This document shows, piece by piece, positions 16,546 through 33,397 of a stretch of DNA of 54,386 bases. Origin of the DNA: Gammaproteobacteria bacterium (GTDB lineage: Bacteria; Pseudomonadota; Gammaproteobacteria; UWMA-0217); assembly GCA_026981985.1 (NCBI GenBank), contig JALSHZ010000121.1, positions 81,168-135,553 of the forward strand, written 5' to 3'. Each line of letters begins with the position of its first letter. Position 1 is the stretch's first letter. The notes beneath the pieces are model-generated. The model had not been told where the DNA came from, did no database searches, and saw only the letters and a list, made by a program, of their open reading frames with translations. The position numbers and the translations under genes are program-made.

Positions 16546-17199
16546 CTACTCGTAACCAAAAATCCAGCGGATGAGCGACTGGTCGCGCAGATTGAAGCTG
16601 CTTTCGCGCTCCGGATGCCACATCAGGCCGCCGACCTGGCGATCACGCATCAGCGCGGCCTCGACCCAGTTGTCGTTGGTGGTGGCCAGTGAATACAGCG
16701 ATGGGTGCAGCTCGTCGAACGGAATGCCGTACTCGTGATCGGAGTTGACTGTGCGAATACCAGACCAGCCGATGCCGTCGGGGCCGTTCTGGGCGCGAAT
16801 CGGGTGCGTTGTGTTGACATGCACACGACAGTCGATCTTCGTGAGTTTGCCACCGACATGCAGCTGAATCTGCTCCATGCCGCGGGAAATGCCGAATATC
16901 GGCAACTCCTTTTGCAGAAAATATTCCAGCAACGCCTGTTCGGTGGCGTCGCGCCGGCTATTGTCGCCAATATCATTGCCGCCGCTGAGAATCAGGCCGT
17001 CGATACCGTGACGAGTAACGTAGTCGATGGCGCTTTCCCGACCGACGTTGGGAATGGGTGTCCAATTGACTTCCGGCAATGCGAACTTCATATAAGCATG
17101 CCAGTTGTGAGAAAGGGTATCGCAGGGCTCGTCTGGTTGCTGCGCATACACTTCTCGCATGGTGATACCGATATGCTTGCTTCCGTTCGCTCGGGTCAT
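16546..17199 (-). CDS. Class I glutamine-amidotransferase-like protein with Ser in place of the nucleophile Cys
   Basis: A 217-residue protein of the gamma-glutamyl-GABA hydrolase-like branch: ILSGGNDIG (about 70-78), the nucleophile elbow GISRGMEQ, and GGLMWHPERE with H195 and E197 of the triad. The nucleophile position is Ser105 (codon TCC) where active enzymes have Cys (GICRGMQ), so normal glutamine hydrolysis is doubtful. It lies on the opposite strand between the efflux adaptor and the FetB-type gene, and its 5' end shares a 197-bp divergent region with the latter. A GGA ribosome-binding site lies 8 bases before the start. Confidence 0.82.
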   Translation of the reverse strand: MTRANGSKHIGITMREVYAQQPDEPCDTLSHNWHAYMKFALPEVNWTPIPNVGRESAIDYVTRHGIDGLILSGGNDIGDNSRRDATEQALLEYFLQKELPIFGISRGMEQIQLHVGGKLTKIDCRVHVNTTHPIRAQNGPDGIGWSGIRTVNSDHEYGIPFDELHPSLYSLATTNDNWVEAALMRDRQVGGLMWHPERESSFNLRDQSLIRWIFGYE

Positions 17200-21877: not shown

Positions 21878-24800
21878 TCAGGCTTGCCCGCTATCAACCG
21901 CATCCGGCACACCCTGCCAGCGATCCACCAGCAGCTGAAGGTTGCGCCGTGCTTCGACAGCGGCGCGGCTGCGGCGGCGCTGCGTCATAGCCAGCAGAAA
22001 GCGCAGGGTCTCGATGCTGGAGCGGTGTTCGCGGAGCGAACCATAGCGGCGGCAGGTGGTGGCAAAGGCTTCGCTGAGTTCATCGACGTGCGCTGCCAGC
22101 TCGTGACCGCCGTCACTGGCGACTGCGTCGGCTGCGAGGTAGCGGGTGAGGCGGCTTTCGATCTGGCCGATGGCGCACCAGAAGTCGGGGTGATCCTGGC
22201 ACCGCTGTTGCAAGACGGCATCCACCTGATCGAGCCAGGTGCTGAATTCCGGCAGTTCATCGCGACGACCGCGCCAGCTGCGGACGATGGTGGCCAGCAG
22301 CCAGTTGAGCAATGGGTAGGGGTCGGCTTCGCCATGGCGGTCGAAATAGAGCTGATGGGCTTCGTGATACCAGCGCGAGACCTGATCAATGGCGGCGCTG
22401 CGTTCGTCGCTGTTGGCGGCGGTCAGTGCGCGGCGTTTCCAGGCGCTGCCGAGCAGGGCGTAGCGTTCACTGGTTGGCGCGAGCCGGGCCAGCTGCTCCA
22501 GGCGTTCGATGGCTTCGTGCAGCAATTGCTCGTCCTCGGGTTCGAGGCGGCCTTGTCTCTCGTAGCGCTGCCCGGCCAGCCGTACCAGCATGTTGGCATA
22601 GTGCTCCAGTGCATTGAGGCTGAGGTCTTGCTGATCGGTGGTCAGCGCGCGGCGGTGATAGTGAATCGATTCCTCATACTCGCCCAGTTCGCCCCAGGCC
22701 AGCGCGGTCGTACTCAACAGGGCGCTGTCGCCATGCCATTCCGGCGGCGCCTGACGCAACAGGCGGCGCAGTTCGTTACGCAGTAAGTCCATGTCCTCGC
22801 TGCCGGCGCTGCTGGCGCGCTGGCGCAGATCCTTCAGATACAACGTCATTTCGCGTGGAATGGTGAATTCCGGCCCCATGTGACTGCGGCTGCTGCCGGC
22901 TGCGGTGCCGTGGAGGCGAAAATTGGGATCACCGTAGCATTGATAGGCGCCCCAGGTATTGCTGTCAGGTTGGTCGCGGTATACCGCCCGGCGTGCATCG
23001 AGCACGGCACTGCCAAAGCAGGCGTTGTCGGCGACCATGCGTTGATAGAACACCTCGGCGAAGCGCAGTGCGGCACCATCGTCGACCGCCCAGCCAGCGG
23101 CGATGACGCAGCGGGCGCCCTCCTCGATCAGTTGCGTGGCGAGGCTGGCGGCCAGCAGGTTGGGGCGCAAGCCGGTTTCGAAGCCGTCTTCCGGCGCCCG
23201 GTCCCGCCCCAGGTGGCAGCAGTTGATGAACACCAGATCGGGCATTGCCGGCATCTGGCTGATTTCGGCGGCGGTGAGGAACATGCCATTGCCCAGCACC
23301 ATGCCGCTGACCAGCTCGCCGGCTGCGTTGGCCGAGTCCTGGTAGTCATAGACGCCATGTCCGGCGAGGTGCAGGATGCGGTAGGGCCGTGCATAGAGTG
23401 CAGCAATGATGTGTTCAGCATTGCTGCGCAGCAGCGAGCGGCTGGTGTCATAGTCGTGGCGGGACAGCAGCGTCCTTACCTGATCGGCTTCCTGCTGCGC
23501 GCCGGGCAGTTCGGTAAAGTCGGATTTTGGATCACCGATGACCAGCGCTTCGTGCAGATCGGGTGGCGCCGGGTTGCGGCGAAAACGGCTCACCACGAGT
23601 TGGCGGATCAGGCCGGCCTGTACCGCGATGGGGCGAGCCGCGCCGTTGTTGCTGCGTTGTTGCAGCAGTTCCCAAGGGTAACGTGCGGCGCTGCGATCGA
23701 GAATCAGCAGGGTGTCGTCGCGTTGCGGTGCCTGATGCTTGAACTCGGTGGGCACCAGTAGTTCGAATAGCGTGGTGGCAACATCGGCATCGTTGCGTGT
23801 GGTTGTGGTGGCGCGTTCGATAAACCGATCGATCAACTGGCGTTGTGTCTGTACCAGCCGGGCTTCGGCGCGGGCGCGCTGTGTGAGATAGACGAAATTC
23901 AGTGCGCCGCGCTCACCCTGACTGATGCGCAAGCGTTCCCACCAGTCATCGCCTTCGCTCCAGACGATACGCTCACGGCCACCGCGGGTCTCGCGGATGC
24001 CCGGCGTCAGGCTGATGCCATTGCGGAACTCGATATTGTGGCACAGGCCCTGCAATACCCTGGCGGCCTGAACCGCGCGGTCGAGAAACAGCTCGACGAA
24101 TTCGATCGATTGCAAACGCAGCGGCGTGAAGCCCTTTTGTGCCACCAATGCCTTGTTGGCATCCTGTGCGCCACGCAGCAGCGCGGTCAGGGCGTCTTCC
24201 ATGCTGATGCCGCCACTGCCACTGCCGACCAGCAGGCAACTGATGCCCAGTGGCTGGTTGCTGGCAAAGCCATTGTCGTGCAGATGGCGGATATAGGTCA
24301 GCACGCCGTGGCGCATCGAGCTTTGCAACTGTGCCGGCGACAGACTGCCGAGCTGACCGAGGCCGATGATGATGGCGCCGAACAAGCGTGCGTCGCTATC
24401 GGGCTGGTCGCGCAGAAACACGCTGGCGGTATTGGCTGCGCCGGGATAGAGGCCTAGCTCGCGGCTTTGGCTCAGGCGGTTGTCGAGGCTGCGGTCGAGG
24501 ACGCGCTCGGCGCTGACGATGACGTCATTTTCGTAGTGCCCGGCCATGATCGGGTGGCGGGCGTAGCGCAGGTCGCCGTGGGTGACGCTCGCCTGCAGCA
24601 GCGGCAATGTGTCGCGGGGCTGTGGTGGTGCAACACCCAGGAAGGCGGCGCGGGCCAGGTCGTTGTCGTCGGGGTAGAGATCCAGTGTCTCGATACCGCG
24701 GCTGGGTGCGCGGCTGACCGTGGCGGTGGGTGGCTGGCGTTCGAGTCGGCTGGTGAATCCGGTGGTGAGGATCTCGACGATCGCGGCTTGCTGATCAGCG

Positions 24801-27205
24801 CCATCGTCGCGTGGCAGGTCGCCATGATTGATTCGGCAATACCAGGTCTCGATGTCGGGCAGGCGTGCAGACGCCCAGGTCACACGACCATCGCCGCCGG
24901 TGGTCTGGCGCAGCAGAATGTCGGCGTCGCTGATGTCGAGTCCGGCAGGGGTGCTGTCCTGCTGGCCGAGTATCAGAAACATCCGCTCCGGGTCGATCGC
25001 CTGATCGCGCAGCAGTTCGCGGCTGCAGCGGGCGCGGTTCAGGTCATCCGCTGTGGGGCGTGGCCAGCCGCCGGGCAGGGGTAGCTGGCGCCAGCTGCTG
25101 GCTTTGAACAGATCGAGGTCGCCGTCTTCGGGCAGCATTTCCAGCAGTCCGGGAAAGCCGGTCAGCAGGGTCAACAGCTCTTCATGGCTGTTTTTCAGGT
25201 CGATGGCGGCGAGCATTCGCGACAGCTTTTCGTGGCCGAGAAACAGCGACGGAATCGCCCAGGAGCCGTGGTTTGGCGTCCCCAGCATCAGCAGGTGGCT
25301 GCCGTCGCGTTCGCCCATTGTTGCCCACAGTTCAGGGTGGCGGGCGATCATGGTGCGTGCCAGCAGCCCGCCCATGGAGTGGGCCAGCAGCCGGATCGTG
25401 GTCTGCGGGTGCTGCGCCATCTGCTCGCGGATGGCCTCGGCGAGGCGGTCGGCGCTGTCCTGTAGTGACTGCCGCCAGTCGTAGGCAAAGGGAATAACCG
25501 TATGCGTTCGGCTGAGTGTTTCGACGATATCGCCATAAGTCGAGGCGTGCAGGCTCACCGGGTTGGCGTCACGATGAATCCGCAGTTTGTTCATGCGTCC
25601 GAGCGCGAGGTTGAACAGGTCGATCCAGATCAGATGCCGACCGACTTCGAGATGGCTGCCAAACACGCCGGGCAGCACGAAGCAGATCGGGCCGCCTTCG
25701 CCGCCCCGCCGGGCGATGCTGCGTGCCGGAATCTCGCGGGTTGCTTCCAGTAACGGCGTGAACCCTGCGTCACTCCCTTCCGTGCGACTCAGGCCGCTGA
25801 TCAATTTCTGCACGCTGTCGGCGTTGGCGAAATAGCGGAAATGACTGACCTCGCCGCCCTGGTGAAACGACTGACGCACGCCGTCCTTGCGCGGCATGCC
25901 GCCGCTCATTGCCGAGGTGTTGACCACCAGGTCGTGCTTTTGCAGGTAGAAAAGATTGGTGACCAGCACGGCCAGGCTCTGGAACAAGCCCTGGGCTTCG
26001 ATGTCGCCTGCGATGACGGAGAGGTCGGCATTGCTGGTGGTCAAGCGAGAGTTGGTCAGGCGGATGAACGGTGATTCCGGCATCATGGCTTCTAGGCCGG
26101 GCAGCTCCTCGGGGTCGGTGCGCTGCTTGAGGATCGCCAGCAGTACGGACTCGACAAAGTTGTAGGTCGGGCTGGCGCGCAGGGCAGGGATCAGTTTCAG
26201 TGCGTTGAGCAACACCGAAAAATAGATATCGAGCCGCTTGCTGGCCAGCGTCGTGCCGCGTGCCGGGCAGGCGACCCGCACGAAACGCTCGACACGAATA
26301 TCCTTGTGGCTGAGGAGCGCCGCAAGCTGGCGCAACTGCTCGGCCTGATCCGGGCGTTGTGATTCAAACAGCGCCAGCTCGGCATCGCTGAAGGGCGCTG
26401 TGCCGTCGTCGACATCCCCACGACACAACAGCTCCGCCACCAGTCCGCCACGGGAGTGACTCACCAGATGCAGCCGAGCGCCATGCGGCAGCTTGTCGAC
26501 CAGCTCCAGTGCGTTGTCGATCGGCCCTTGGGACAGGCTGTGATGCTCGAAGGCGTAAACATGCTCGCCATAGGCTTCTTCGACATGTTGCCGCCAGACA
26601 TGCTGCTGCTCGCCGCTCCACAAATCGCCGAAACTGCCCTCGGTGCTGGAGGCGGTGCCATGGATGAACAGCAGTATCGGGCGGTCGGCGGGAATGTCGG
26701 CTGTCGGTGGATGCAGCGCGAACTCATCGAGACTGCATTGCAGCAGGCCGCCACCTTCGATCAGCTGTCCTTCGAGCTTCTCGGTCAACTCTCGGGTTGC
26801 CAGTGCGGCGACATCGTCGCTGCTGGGCAGGATCTTGAGGAACTTGAGTGCCTTGACGAAAAAATTCTTGAAGCCGCCCCGTTGATTGCTGCCCAATGGT
26901 AGGTGGAGTGGCACGGTGACGCTGTCGTCGCCACCATCGCGGGGCTCGGGACCCGCGATGATCTCCAGCCAGGACTCCCGTGTCAGGTAGAGTGTGACGT
27001 CGCCTTCGAGTTCCAGCTGCACGATTTCATCTTCACCGAGGATGCGTTCGCTGAATTGCGACTCGGCGGCGCGGGATGCCGTCAGCTCATAAGCGTCGAC
27101 CACTTCCGCTTGTAGCAGATCGAAGCCCGTGGGAGCCAGGCGTTCGCCAATGCTGGCGGTCTGTACTTCGCCGGGGATGCGTAATGTGAATGCTGAGTTG
27201 GGCAT
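21878..27205 (-). CDS. Giant CHAT-domain protein with two alpha/beta-hydrolase domains
   Basis: A 1775-residue protein with no signal peptide. Visible domains in order: an N-terminal unknown region (1-170). Hydrolase 1 (about 175-470) has FIHGTAS and the nucleophile elbow SHSRGG (S251). Hydrolase 2 (about 505-800) resembles PGAP1/LCAT lipases, with FVLPGVFGSHL, FAYDWRQS, elbow AHSMGG (S610) and a candidate H794 (INHGD). A region at about 850-1060 (HGDLRYARHPIMAGHY, GLYPG, GLGQLG) resembles one seen in other CHAT proteins. The caspase-like CHAT domain (about 1100-1435) has dyad candidates H1283 (LAGHG) and C1330 (CHLG). The helical TPR-like tail is about 1450-1775. AGAGGA lies upstream. The architecture suggests a protease-regulated or protease-activating lipase, possibly in cell defence. 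That role is inference. Confidence 0.88.
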   Translation of the reverse strand: MPNSAFTLRIPGEVQTASIGERLAPTGFDLLQAEVVDAYELTASRAAESQFSERILGEDEIVQLELEGDVTLYLTRESWLEIIAGPEPRDGGDDSVTVPLHLPLGSNQRGGFKNFFVKALKFLKILPSSDDVAALATRELTEKLEGQLIEGGGLLQCSLDEFALHPPTADIPADRPILLFIHGTASSTEGSFGDLWSGEQQHVWRQHVEEAYGEHVYAFEHHSLSQGPIDNALELVDKLPHGARLHLVSHSRGGLVAELLCRGDVDDGTAPFSDAELALFESQRPDQAEQLRQLAALLSHKDIRVERFVRVACPARGTTLASKRLDIYFSVLLNALKLIPALRASPTYNFVESVLLAILKQRTDPEELPGLEAMMPESPFIRLTNSRLTTSNADLSVIAGDIEAQGLFQSLAVLVTNLFYLQKHDLVVNTSAMSGGMPRKDGVRQSFHQGGEVSHFRYFANADSVQKLISGLSRTEGSDAGFTPLLEATREIPARSIARRGGEGGPICFVLPGVFGSHLEVGRHLIWIDLFNLALGRMNKLRIHRDANPVSLHASTYGDIVETLSRTHTVIPFAYDWRQSLQDSADRLAEAIREQMAQHPQTTIRLLAHSMGGLLARTMIARHPELWATMGERDGSHLLMLGTPNHGSWAIPSLFLGHEKLSRMLAAIDLKNSHEELLTLLTGFPGLLEMLPEDGDLDLFKASSWRQLPLPGGWPRPTADDLNRARCSRELLRDQAIDPERMFLILGQQDSTPAGLDISDADILLRQTTGGDGRVTWASARLPDIETWYCRINHGDLPRDDGADQQAAIVEILTTGFTSRLERQPPTATVSRAPSRGIETLDLYPDDNDLARAAFLGVAPPQPRDTLPLLQASVTHGDLRYARHPIMAGHYENDVIVSAERVLDRSLDNRLSQSRELGLYPGAANTASVFLRDQPDSDARLFGAIIIGLGQLGSLSPAQLQSSMRHGVLTYIRHLHDNGFASNQPLGISCLLVGSGSGGISMEDALTALLRGAQDANKALVAQKGFTPLRLQSIEFVELFLDRAVQAARVLQGLCHNIEFRNGISLTPGIRETRGGRERIVWSEGDDWWERLRISQGERGALNFVYLTQRARAEARLVQTQRQLIDRFIERATTTTRNDADVATTLFELLVPTEFKHQAPQRDDTLLILDRSAARYPWELLQQRSNNGAARPIAVQAGLIRQLVVSRFRRNPAPPDLHEALVIGDPKSDFTELPGAQQEADQVRTLLSRHDYDTSRSLLRSNAEHIIAALYARPYRILHLAGHGVYDYQDSANAAGELVSGMVLGNGMFLTAAEISQMPAMPDLVFINCCHLGRDRAPEDGFETGLRPNLLAASLATQLIEEGARCVIAAGWAVDDGAALRFAEVFYQRMVADNACFGSAVLDARRAVYRDQPDSNTWGAYQCYGDPNFRLHGTAAGSSRSHMGPEFTIPREMTLYLKDLRQRASSAGSEDMDLLRNELRRLLRQAPPEWHGDSALLSTTALAWGELGEYEESIHYHRRALTTDQQDLSLNALEHYANMLVRLAGQRYERQGRLEPEDEQLLHEAIERLEQLARLAPTSERYALLGSAWKRRALTAANSDERSAAIDQVSRWYHEAHQLYFDRHGEADPYPLLNWLLATIVRSWRGRRDELPEFSTWLDQVDAVLQQRCQDHPDFWCAIGQIESRLTRYLAADAVASDGGHELAAHVDELSEAFATTCRRYGSLREHRSSIETLRFLLAMTQRRRSRAAVEARRNLQLLVDRWQGVPDAVDSGQA

Positions 27206-30008: not shown

Positions 30009-31655
30009 TCAGTCGCTTGTGCTGCTCATGAGTCCGCCGAGTTCTTGCAGGGGTTCGGCTTGTAGTTGTTTGATCTCGGTTTCGAGCTGCTGGAGGTTTT
30101 CCCGCAGTTGCCGGCGGCTGTTGATGCGTTCTTGCCAAGTGTTCTTATACAGTTGTTCGATGCGGGTGATGCCGCTATGGATGCCGTTTTTAAGCCCTTG
30201 CCGAATGGCGGCTGCCATCGAGGGTTTGACCTTGTTGTGTAGCAGCCATGGGATCAAGGCACCGAGCAGGATGAGCATGCTGGCATGGATGAGGAAGTTG
30301 AAGCCGAGGAATTCGTCTTCGCCTTGTGTGCCGGCGTAGAAGCTGGTGATGACGTGAAAGACAGCCCATAGTGCGGCGAGTAAAGGTAGTACCCAGATAA
30401 GCGTGCCGGTGTAGCGATAGACGGCGCGCTGCCATGCGCTGCCGGGATTCAGCATCGTGGCATTGACTGCATCATTCAGTGCTTGTTCCATGGCGACCGA
30501 GGCGTTGTCGCGCAGTCTTCGCAGTGGGTGTTCAAACGCTTGCCATGGCAGGCGACGGTTCTGGAGTTGATTGACGAGCTGTTCGTTGAGGGCGTCGAGC
30601 CTTGCCTGGTTGCGCTGGTTCCACAGGGAGTGGATCAGTTGATCGGTGTCGATGGGGGCGGGTGCCGGGTTGTCGTTTCCGCCCTTGAGGCGGGCGAGCA
30701 GGCTGCCCGGTTTGTTCGAAGCCTTGATCATGAAGCTTTGGGTGAGTGCTTCGGCCTGGGTTTGCAGATGTTTGTCGATGCTGTTGAGTTGTTCCCTGGT
30801 GGTCTGGTTCCATTCCTGTTCCGCGTCACGCCAGCTGCTGTCGTCACCCAGTTCGTTGATGAAGCGCTCGGCGAGGTTTTCCAGGTCGCGGTTGCGCGCC
30901 TGAATGCCGAGTTGTTGCAGAATGTCGAGACCGTAGCGGTTGATGGCGTCGTTGATGATTTGTTCGAGTTTGTCGAAGTCATCGGGCTCGTCGGTGGGAA
31001 TGCCGACGGTGCGCAGGATGGTCGGATTTTTGAAGCCTTCGGCCTCAAGGCGGCGGCGCAGATCATCGATTTGCTCTTCGCGACCCTGATCCCAGTGATT
31101 CATTACGAACAGCCAGGCATGGCGGCTGGCGCGCTCCTGCAGAAAGCGCCAGCCGATGTCGTCGTAATAGCGCTCTGGGCTGACGACGTAGATGATCCAA
31201 TCCACATAGGGTAGCCAGGATTTGACGATCTCGCGGTTGTGGGTGGCGGTGCTGTCGATGTCCGGCATGTCGAGCCAGGCGATCAGGCGTCGTTCCGGTT
31301 TCGAATGGTAGGCGATGCGGGTGTCCGTCATCGGCAGGTCTTCCGGCAGCAGCTCCAGGCGGAAGTCTTTGTGCAGATAGAGTGTCACCTCGTGAGAGGT
31401 TGGGCGCTCGACGCCGGCGCGGGCGATTTCCTCGCCAGCGAGTCGATTCAACAGGCTGCTCTTGCCAACGCCGGTGCCGCCAAACAAGCCGACGATCAAC
31501 GGCCGGTGCGGGTGCTGCCGAAACAATTCGCTGACATGCAGTTGTTCGATGTTGTCGAGCCGTTCGGGCGCGTCCTTTTGCAACCAGCCGGATGCGACGG
31601 CCTCGTTGGTCTGGTGTTTGAGGGATTGATACAGCGACTGGAAATCGGGGCTCAT
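30009..31655 (-). CDS. Membrane-anchored dynamin-like GTPase (second of pair)
   Basis: A 548-residue P-loop GTPase: G1 GGTGVGKSS (59-67), probable G2 Thr in RPTSHEVT, G3 DMPD (129-132) and G4 NHWD (186-189). The middle is helical. Two hydrophobic segments (about 410-432, TLIWVLPLLAALWAVFHVI, and about 447-465, FLIHASMLILLGALIPWLL) form a membrane paddle or hairpin, followed by a basic coiled coil. This is the layout of bacterial dynamin-like proteins and related membrane-remodelling GTPases. The start overlaps the stop of the upstream GTPase by 4 bp, so they are likely made together and may form hetero-oligomers. Confidence 0.82.
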   Translation of the reverse strand: MSPDFQSLYQSLKHQTNEAVASGWLQKDAPERLDNIEQLHVSELFRQHPHRPLIVGLFGGTGVGKSSLLNRLAGEEIARAGVERPTSHEVTLYLHKDFRLELLPEDLPMTDTRIAYHSKPERRLIAWLDMPDIDSTATHNREIVKSWLPYVDWIIYVVSPERYYDDIGWRFLQERASRHAWLFVMNHWDQGREEQIDDLRRRLEAEGFKNPTILRTVGIPTDEPDDFDKLEQIINDAINRYGLDILQQLGIQARNRDLENLAERFINELGDDSSWRDAEQEWNQTTREQLNSIDKHLQTQAEALTQSFMIKASNKPGSLLARLKGGNDNPAPAPIDTDQLIHSLWNQRNQARLDALNEQLVNQLQNRRLPWQAFEHPLRRLRDNASVAMEQALNDAVNATMLNPGSAWQRAVYRYTGTLIWVLPLLAALWAVFHVITSFYAGTQGEDEFLGFNFLIHASMLILLGALIPWLLHNKVKPSMAAAIRQGLKNGIHSGITRIEQLYKNTWQERINSRRQLRENLQQLETEIKQLQAEPLQELGGLMSSTSD

Positions 31656-33397
31656 AGCTTGTTCAGTTCCTGTTCGGCGGCGTTGAGCGTTGCTTCGTCA
31701 AAGCCATAGACCGTGGCGGGATCGAGGCTGGCGGGGAGTTGCCGTAGCCGATGCTGTAGTGGCGTGAAGATGTGCTGTCGAGCCGATTCGAGTTGTGCGG
31801 CTTTGAGCTCTTCTTCGACCTTGGTCATGTAACGCCCGACGGCGCCTTCGGTCAGCATCGAGGTGAAGGCGAGCATGGCCGGTGCCAGCACCAGGTCGTT
31901 GAGGCCGATGCCGCCGGTCTTCAGTGCCAGCACCAGCGCGCCGACATCGGTGGTGACGCGGGCGGCGCGCAGGCTATTGAGCGTGGCGGGGTGTTGTTGC
32001 AGGTAGTGGTAGAGGTCTTCGGCGGCCGCTTCGATGTGTGGCTCGAAAGCCTGCTGGTGGGTGCTGATGCACTGCTCGATGAATGCATGAAGATCGTCGG
32101 ATTCCTGCTGTAGCTGCATCCACAGTTGCTGCCACCAGCTACGTAGCTCGACATCGTCATTGGCGGAACGGTCACCGATGCCCCGTTGCAGCGTAATCAG
32201 CAGGTCATTGAGCGTCTCGTTGAGCGTGTCGGCCTCGAAGTCGGGTTTGCGGCTGCCGTCTTCCTGGGGTGTTTCACGCTGCCACAGCTTGTTGATCAAT
32301 GTGCGCGCAGGCCATGAGATGGCGTTGCGCACCCGGCCGATTTGCCCCGCCAGTCCGGGCAGTTCCAGCAGTTCCATTAACCGGACTATGGCGCGTTGCA
32401 GCGTGTCGGAATAGTGTGGATCTCGCAGGTAATTCTGCTGATATCGCTTCTCGGCACGCCCGAATTCCTGGCCGAGCATGTTGTTCCAAACTTTGCCGGC
32501 GGCGATTTCGCGGCGTACCGGAGCGGTCCAGTCGAGCCAATGGGTCTGCAGAAAAGTCCTGACCTTGCGGCTATCGGGCAGTTTGCGTTGCTCCGGCAGC
32601 AAGCGCTGGGAAAGGCGAAGCAGCGCCCGGCCAGACTCACTTTCACGCATGCGTTGCAGATCCGGGTCGCTCTCGTAGGGGAGGGCGATGATGCCGCCGT
32701 GTTCGATATTTTCTTGATGCAGTTTGGCCGACATCGCATCGGCAATCTGTACTGAGCTGTCGGGGTTTGCCTTGTTGATGCAGATCGCCAGCGGGTGCGG
32801 TGCCTGGTTGATGAGCCGTAGCGTTTCCCAGACAGACTGGTCGGCGTACTTCTCCTTGCTGACGACCAACACGATCAGGTCGGCCATGGCGCAGAGCTTT
32901 GGTACGCCAAAACGATAGCTGCGTGAACTCACGGAGTCGAAGTCGGGCGTATCCCAGAACATCGCTGGCGAAACGATGGCATCGCGGGTTTCGATTTCAG
33001 TGATGGTGTACTCGTGAAGATTTTCTGCACTGAGCTGGTCGAGCGGAACACGGGAAAGCCCAGGTAGCAGCTCGTCAACAATATTGGTTAGTGTTGCGGA
33101 TACTGTGTTGGTGCAAAATCCCTGGGCATGACGGGTAAAGCCCGCCAGCGCATTGGATTTTGCGGCCTCGGTGCCAAGCAGGATATTGACGATCGTGCTT
33201 TTGCCGGCCTGCGTTGGGCCGATGACGACGATCTGGGGAATCAGTTCAGGATGTTGATTGATGACATCGAAGTAACGCAGGATCGCGTTGGCATAGACGA
33301 GCGAGGGGTCCTCGTTCTCATCCCCCCTGATGCGGATCTGGCGTTCCTGCAGTGCCGCCAGAAATGCCCTGAGTTTGTCCGTTGTGTTGGCTTGCAT
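31652..33397 (-). CDS. Dynamin-like GTPase (first of pair)
   Basis: A 581-residue GTPase: G1 GPTQAGKST (60-68), G3 DTPD (149-152), and G4 as NKAN (208-211), where NKxD is canonical. The long helical C-terminal part (coiled-coil stalk) contains a mildly hydrophobic segment (about 475-510, VGALVLALKTGGIGLNDLVLAPAMLAF) that may dip into the membrane, as in dynamin-like proteins. It is the first gene of a leftward two-gene unit with the GTPase at 30009-31655. Such pairs may act together in membrane fusion, fission or stress repair; no partner gene here tells which. Confidence 0.8.
   Translation of the reverse strand: MQANTTDKLRAFLAALQERQIRIRGDENEDPSLVYANAILRYFDVINQHPELIPQIVVIGPTQAGKSTIVNILLGTEAAKSNALAGFTRHAQGFCTNTVSATLTNIVDELLPGLSRVPLDQLSAENLHEYTITEIETRDAIVSPAMFWDTPDFDSVSSRSYRFGVPKLCAMADLIVLVVSKEKYADQSVWETLRLINQAPHPLAICINKANPDSSVQIADAMSAKLHQENIEHGGIIALPYESDPDLQRMRESESGRALLRLSQRLLPEQRKLPDSRKVRTFLQTHWLDWTAPVRREIAAGKVWNNMLGQEFGRAEKRYQQNYLRDPHYSDTLQRAIVRLMELLELPGLAGQIGRVRNAISWPARTLINKLWQRETPQEDGSRKPDFEADTLNETLNDLLITLQRGIGDRSANDDVELRSWWQQLWMQLQQESDDLHAFIEQCISTHQQAFEPHIEAAAEDLYHYLQQHPATLNSLRAARVTTDVGALVLALKTGGIGLNDLVLAPAMLAFTSMLTEGAVGRYMTKVEEELKAAQLESARQHIFTPLQHRLRQLPASLDPATVYGFDEATLNAAEQELNKL

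Follow-up and report, generated by a model that had tools for sequence, protein, structure and literature searches.

A 1775-residue bacterial protein joining two α/β-hydrolase domains to a CHAT protease, a candidate cell-death effector

The window—the whole 54,386-nucleotide stretch of DNA analyzed here—encodes a 1775-residue protein in which two α/β-hydrolase domains share one chain with a macro-like domain, a caspase-like CHAT protease and a TPR-S module. With somewhat better than even confidence, we read it as an effector of cell death that is soluble and self-contained and belongs to a bacterial conflict system, probably an anti-phage one, in which the protease controls hydrolases of membrane lipids; we infer its cytosolic location, protease activity, lipid substrate and trigger, the mode of cleavage (in cis or in trans) and the phage context. 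All three active-site sets are conserved and homologs occur outside housekeeping contexts, which together favor the protease-plus-lipase effector of immunity that the preliminary description had proposed. Its active sites and the immune neighbors of its relatives speak for that proposal, and the lack of such neighbors at the window locus itself speaks against it. Since relatives repeatedly lie beside caspase and TIR immune genes, the protein is probably no metabolic enzyme but an anti-virus effector of self-destruction.

The open reading frame (21878..27205 on the minus strand, as are all features of the protein given below) starts with ATG, contains no internal stop and carries, 12 nt 5′ of its start codon, a GAGGA motif that would make a plausible ribosome-binding site. 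With a single copy in its own 3.35-Mb genome and full-length homologs elsewhere, it is real, intact and conserved. From the N-terminus onward, an N-terminal domain precedes five recognized domains: α/β-hydrolase 1 (DUF7379), α/β-hydrolase 2 (LCAT/PGAP1-like), an M17_N/macro-like domain, CHAT and TPR-S. The earlier claim that two lipase-like domains and a CHAT domain are united in one 1775-residue chain is thus borne out by the intact reading frame and by Pfam matches to DUF7379, LCAT/PGAP1 and CHAT. The N-terminal domain (residues 1–170; 26696..27205) is conserved in the family (R109, G111) and has no true match in Pfam, the lone DUF7379 match stemming from one member’s over-long segment; AlphaFold 2 modeled it, at low confidence, as beta-rich with one long helix. 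The 1775-residue protein matched no PADLOC 2.0 model, NCBIfam returned only weak abhydrolase matches, and neither NCBIfam nor a sequence search of the PDB yielded a closer family.

Hydrolase 1 (residues ~171–500; 25706..26695) was recognized by Pfam as DUF7379, an α/β-hydrolase-type family (E 2.6e-36; match around residues 178–262 and beyond), and hydrolase 2 (residues ~501–835; 24701..25705) as LCAT (residues 566–705; 1.1e-7) and PGAP1 (2.7e-7). An AlphaFold model of residues 1–835, built from five sequences and of modest-to-low confidence (pTM 0.50), places S251 between strand 244–250 and helix 253–261 and S610 between strand 604–609 and helix 611–622. When submitted to Foldseek, this model returned lipases, esterases and thioesterases, bacterial lipases and LCAT among them (E ~5e-4 to 3e-3). 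The two candidate nucleophiles—S251 within HSRGG (26453..26455) and S610 within HSMGG (25376..25378)—lie at the residues proposed beforehand and are kept in most of the family: in an alignment of 36 members including the window protein, 35 of which possess the hydrolase part, serine occupies these positions in 34/35 and 31/35 sequences, respectively. Conserved with them are the candidate triad partners of S251, D425 (25931–25933) and H455 (25841–25843; both 35/35), and those of S610, D772 (24890–24892; 35/35) and H794 (24824–24826; 34/35). Both domains hence combine an elbow between strand and helix with a conserved Asp and His, as α/β-hydrolases do. Given that the top Foldseek matches to the model mix lipases and thioesterases, they could also act on a non-lipid substrate, as esterases or thioesterases.

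The exceptions to serine conservation follow a pattern. S610 is missing in four members (L008, L018, L019, L113), all of which have S251, and S251 is missing in one (L006), which has S610; none of the 35 aligned members with a hydrolase part has lost both. We read this as selection for at least one working hydrolase alongside the protease—the outcome expected if the hydrolase is the effector and one suffices—and at the level of the alignment the two hydrolases are mutually redundant.

The CHAT domain (PF12770; residues 1142–1426; 22928..23782; E 1.5e-28) retains the candidate catalytic residues that had been named from the sequence, H1283 in a GHG motif (23357..23359) and C1330 in NCCHLG (23216..23218), and both are invariant in all 36 family members. 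It is followed by the TPR-S (tetratricopeptide repeats-sensor) domain (residues 1509–1637; 22295..22681; E 2.7e-12). The chain therefore holds three active-site sets whose conservation across the family alignment implies purifying selection, and the three activities themselves are predicted.

The region between the second hydrolase and CHAT had been described as lacking an assigned function (residues 850–1060), a statement that no longer holds. Pfam searches with homologs, AlphaFold and Foldseek agree that residues ~856–1070 (23996..24640) are, as modeled, a macro-like domain of the M17_N type, which is found at the N-terminus of leucyl aminopeptidases. Peptidase_M17_N (PF02789) matched nine of 14 homologous segments (best E 1.4e-6) and, at 6e-7, a Rhizobium relative; the window copy alone gave a marginal match (E 0.05). 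The AlphaFold model of residues 836–1125 (pTM 0.68, core pLDDT ~75–93) led Foldseek to macroH2A (1.9e-6), PARP14 and PARP9 as well as to the N-terminal domains of leucyl aminopeptidases (LAP/PepA), all with E ~1e-6 to 1e-5, and sequence and fold matches thus coincide.

Variants of the architecture bear on which part of the protein acts as the effector. A 936-residue relative on a Rhizobium plasmid (L026) consists of macro, CHAT and TPR-S domains only, another Rhizobium plasmid protein (L027) combines one hydrolase with macro and CHAT and overlaps a SIR2-pYEATS gene, and a third relative (L109) is a 1014-residue form without hydrolases. Across these variants, macro and CHAT form the unchanging core whereas the hydrolases can be exchanged, which favors the hydrolases as effectors. 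The same variants would also suit a reading in which CHAT is the real effector, degrading cell proteins like the caspases of type IV Thoeris, and the hydrolases are regulatory or scaffolding parts that sense lipids or acyl ligands: hydrolase-less forms such as L026 and L109 retain macro and CHAT (with or without TPR-S), the CHAT dyad never varies whereas either hydrolase serine can be missing, and the C14 caspase partner introduced below is related to the caspases of stand-alone TIR-C14 pairs. We consider this unlikely because no member has dispensed with both serines and because the Asp and His of the triads, unnecessary for a mere scaffold, are conserved too.

Near-full-length homologs share 28–41% overall identity (43% in the best case) and come from Proteobacteria, a Nitrospirae MAG and Actinobacteria. 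Their occurrence is patchy: the gene was found in 12/369 genomes of the class and 19/300 genomes in one order, and it is absent from a same-genus genome. Some members are plasmid-borne (Azotobacter, Paracoccus, Ensifer, Rhizobium), the one from Azotobacter next to a type I restriction-modification cluster that also contains Fic genes, and the window gene has a GC content of 0.64 as compared to ~0.55–0.59 in most of its surroundings. A search of a collection of phage genomes turned up no relative. In a search for empty sites among same-family genomes, the flanking genes were present on short contigs and non-syntenic, so that a fixed insertion site could not be demonstrated. One relative (L037:224-2857) runs from the macro-like domain straight to ~residue 1400, so that the core of CHAT is missing along with most of hydrolase 1; this degraded or rearranged copy lies near a contig end and is followed by a 1095-residue protein with membrane-like stretches.

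The neighborhoods of relatives, which the preliminary description had suggested surveying for defense genes, are not of a housekeeping-only kind, as C14 caspase, TIR, SIR2, STAND and SLOG genes recur in them. A gene for a C14 caspase of ~280 residues lies within 2 kb of the family gene in 11/26 genomes from nine genera, where the per-genome number of C14 genes would lead one to expect 0.06 (P ~1e-23), and TIR genes do so in 5/26 genomes against 0.16 expected (P 4e-7), both P values assuming an independence among genomes that does not hold. Linkage to C14 occurs on several separate branches of the family tree; no C14 caspase lies nearby in ~15 of the 26 genomes, and most members have no adjacent TIR gene. 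Gaps between the C14 and CHAT reading frames are mostly ~1–115 bp, and the two genes therefore look co-transcribed in an operon-like arrangement. TIR may join them, as in G342 (order C14-CHAT-TIR) and in G107 (same order, but with a 1-kb gap after C14), and a richer locus in G277 comprises TIR-NB-ARC, C14, CHAT, DUF4062-NB-ARC and another protein with TPR-S. SLOG-TIR and TIR-NACHT genes flank the Nitrospirae member on both sides, and further relatives neighbor SIR2 and nSTAND1 (L024), TIR-nSTAND1-WD40 (L026) or TIR, nSTAND1 and GH108 (L110). Several of these neighbors match PADLOC models, namely caspase and, for the TIR and SIR2 genes, ThsB and ThsA.

In most CHAT operons, the C14 caspase is 61–75% identical to its counterparts in stand-alone TIR-C14 pairs that the same survey turned up (L114, L115), as compared to mostly only 33–57% mutual identity among the CHAT proteins of the same operons, arguing that the caspase is conserved and the CHAT-lipase protein fast-diverging. 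The stand-alone TIR and C14 pairs themselves (L114:3001-5035, L115:3187-5163, L116:43-3263) may be relatives of type IV Thoeris.

The macro fold recovered by Foldseek, together with the TIR, SIR2, DUF4062 and SLOG neighbors of relatives, raises the question of a nucleotide signal: the macro-like domain might bind an NAD-derived, ADP-ribose-type product of a neighboring TIR or SIR2 enzyme and thereby activate CHAT and the lipases. An NAD-type nucleotide is attractive as a trigger because the macro domain of the type II Thoeris TM-macro protein ThsA binds ADPR/IAD-type ligands (PMC11204291) and because type IV Thoeris, as described in PMC12847820, couples TIR to a caspase-like protease that is activated by TIR-made N7-cADPR. 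In an antiphage system, DUF4062 has recently been reported to act as a TIR-like NADase (PMC13174449). The scarcity of adjacent TIR genes across the family nevertheless makes this nucleotide-sensing route rather improbable. The closest sequence family of the macro-like domain is, moreover, M17_N, for which we know of no ADP-ribose-type ligand, and the canonical binding motifs of macro domains were not recognized by eye in the family consensus.

The window locus is plainer than those of many relatives. The gene is surrounded by genes for an Hpt protein, an RND pump, a nucleotidyltransferase-like protein, AdoMet synthetase and two dynamin-like GTPases, and there is no C14 caspase, TIR or other immune partner among these neighbors. 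The remark that no gasdermin or known sensor adjoins the gene hence stands for the sensor at this locus and fails for the family, in which C14 caspase and TIR genes recur. A C14 protein encoded elsewhere in the same genome was considered as a partner and rejected (923 residues, lipoprotein-like N-terminus, on another contig). With partner genes absent from the locus, the window copy has to work by itself or rely on partners whose genes lie elsewhere. A housekeeping or envelope-stress lipid-remodeling enzyme, with CHAT as its maturation protease and the immune genes hitch-hiking in variable genome islands, would suit the ordinary neighbors at the window and at about half of the loci, as well as a close member (L096, from G759) that adjoins none of the immune genes, but the patchy distribution that extends to a same-genus genome and a C14 adjacency far above expectation in nine genera and several branches render it very improbable.

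Two features of the window locus may be recorded here. The dynamin-like/MMR_HSR1 GTPases (548 and 581 residues; 30009-33397, minus strand) are encoded by adjacent genes with overlapping ends, like bacterial dynamin-like pairs, and a Class-I glutamine amidotransferase/peptidase C26-like protein is encoded at 16546-17199 (minus strand).

Among described systems, the VMAP ternary conflict systems come to mind, in which a caspase gene never occurs without an α/β-hydrolase gene (Kaur et al. 2020, PMC7159879), and on account of this partnership the general kind of system was anticipated. The VMAP/MoxR-vWA and GAP1 ternary systems, whose logic is computationally predicted, likewise are multi-domain conflict systems that couple a caspase-superfamily peptidase with an α/β-hydrolase. 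Their hydrolase is, however, mostly a neighboring gene, whereas the present chain unites two of them with macro-like, CHAT and TPR-S domains; among the Pfam-scanned neighbors of the relatives and the window gene, none was a VMAP, vWA or MoxR partner. By analogy, the present family resembles an enlarged form of that caspase–hydrolase partnership in which the partners are fused. In the literature searched we found no description of this domain architecture or of its C14/TIR operons.

Type IV Thoeris consists of TIR and a caspase-like protease (Rousset et al. 2025, as described in PMC12847820), and by that description the C14 and TIR operons of some relatives resemble it; a TIR and a caspase-like gene share one operon beside L030, L031, L107 and L111. 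The CHAT-lipase protein would be an extra component, most members have no TIR, and the window locus has neither TIR nor C14. As the required partners or models are absent there, we do not class the window locus as Thoeris or as any PADLOC-listed system. Craspase TPR-CHAT, of type III-E CRISPR (PMC9729208), also unites TPR and CHAT within one protein, but in ours TPR-S is C-terminal and hydrolases and a macro-like domain are added. No gRAMP or CRISPR genes were recognized among the annotated neighbors of the window gene and its relatives. ThsA of type II Thoeris resembles the predicted effector in combining a macro-fold module with a TIR partner (here, in some relatives), and differs in having a transmembrane effector in place of an M17_N-like macro variant with protease and lipase. 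Membrane-damaging effectors are also found in CBASS (phospholipases of the CapV type) and in bacterial gasdermin-protease operons, the latter under protease control. Membrane damage is predicted here too; unlike these systems, the present family has no cyclase, gasdermin or patatin, and its hydrolases are of the α/β fold and fused to the protease.

Returning to the protease-controlled effector that we favor, its action can be pictured in four steps. The C-terminal TPR-S domain, the macro-like domain or both would keep the protein inactive and receive a trigger in the form of a small molecule or a protein partner, which in relatives would likely come from the adjacent TIR, SIR2 or STAND gene. 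The trigger would then turn on CHAT, either by itself or jointly with the small C14 caspase whose gene adjoins those of many relatives. Cleavage, whether in cis or carried out by this caspase, would free or unlock both N-terminal α/β-hydrolases, for which protease-activated pro-effectors provide a published precedent (PMC12799240). Finally, the hydrolases would cleave membrane (phospho)lipids, and the infected cell would be killed or arrested. A more ambitious and doubtful version is a one-protein, ‘pyroptosis-like’ executioner, in which an NAD-derived signal from TIR or SIR2, or a C14 cascade, would act through the macro-like and TPR-S domains on CHAT to release two membrane-dissolving lipases from the same chain. 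To our knowledge, a lipase gated by a protease in cis would be unlike the gasdermin, nuclease and NADase effectors.

Should the favored reading be right, a widespread, uncharacterized effector family with fused protease and lipases would place the membrane-killing step of caspase-type bacterial cell death in a single protein, with a caspase partner that is repeatedly co-inherited. It would offer a compact model in which a protease controls killing by lipases, and it may connect TIR/NAD signaling to caspase-like immunity. For experiments, conserved C14-CHAT-TIR operons (e.g., those of G342 and G107) are a better starting point than the window copy.

Several further genes accompany family members. 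GH108 proteins, phage-endolysin-like and with a peptidoglycan-binding part, directly adjoin CHAT genes at two distant loci (L110:6648-7274, L026:12830-13447), and an M15 peptidase gene (L101:12695-13372) overlaps a CHAT gene end; such cell-wall lytic partners would fit an envelope-destroying role. In Paracoccus, large partners with a membrane-like N-terminus are encoded directly upstream of the CHAT-lipase genes (L022:6631-9915, L025:6252-9527), one of them with an SBP_bac_3 domain, and Ensifer encodes a Peripla_BP_4 protein (L024:8311-9351); all of these partners are possible periplasmic sensor inputs. Lastly, small proteins of ~200 residues with a LFSGHMIDAPDR-like start recur near the family (L099:16529-17176, L107:15362-15937, L026:18985-19569), one of which is weakly YAcAr/SLOG-like.
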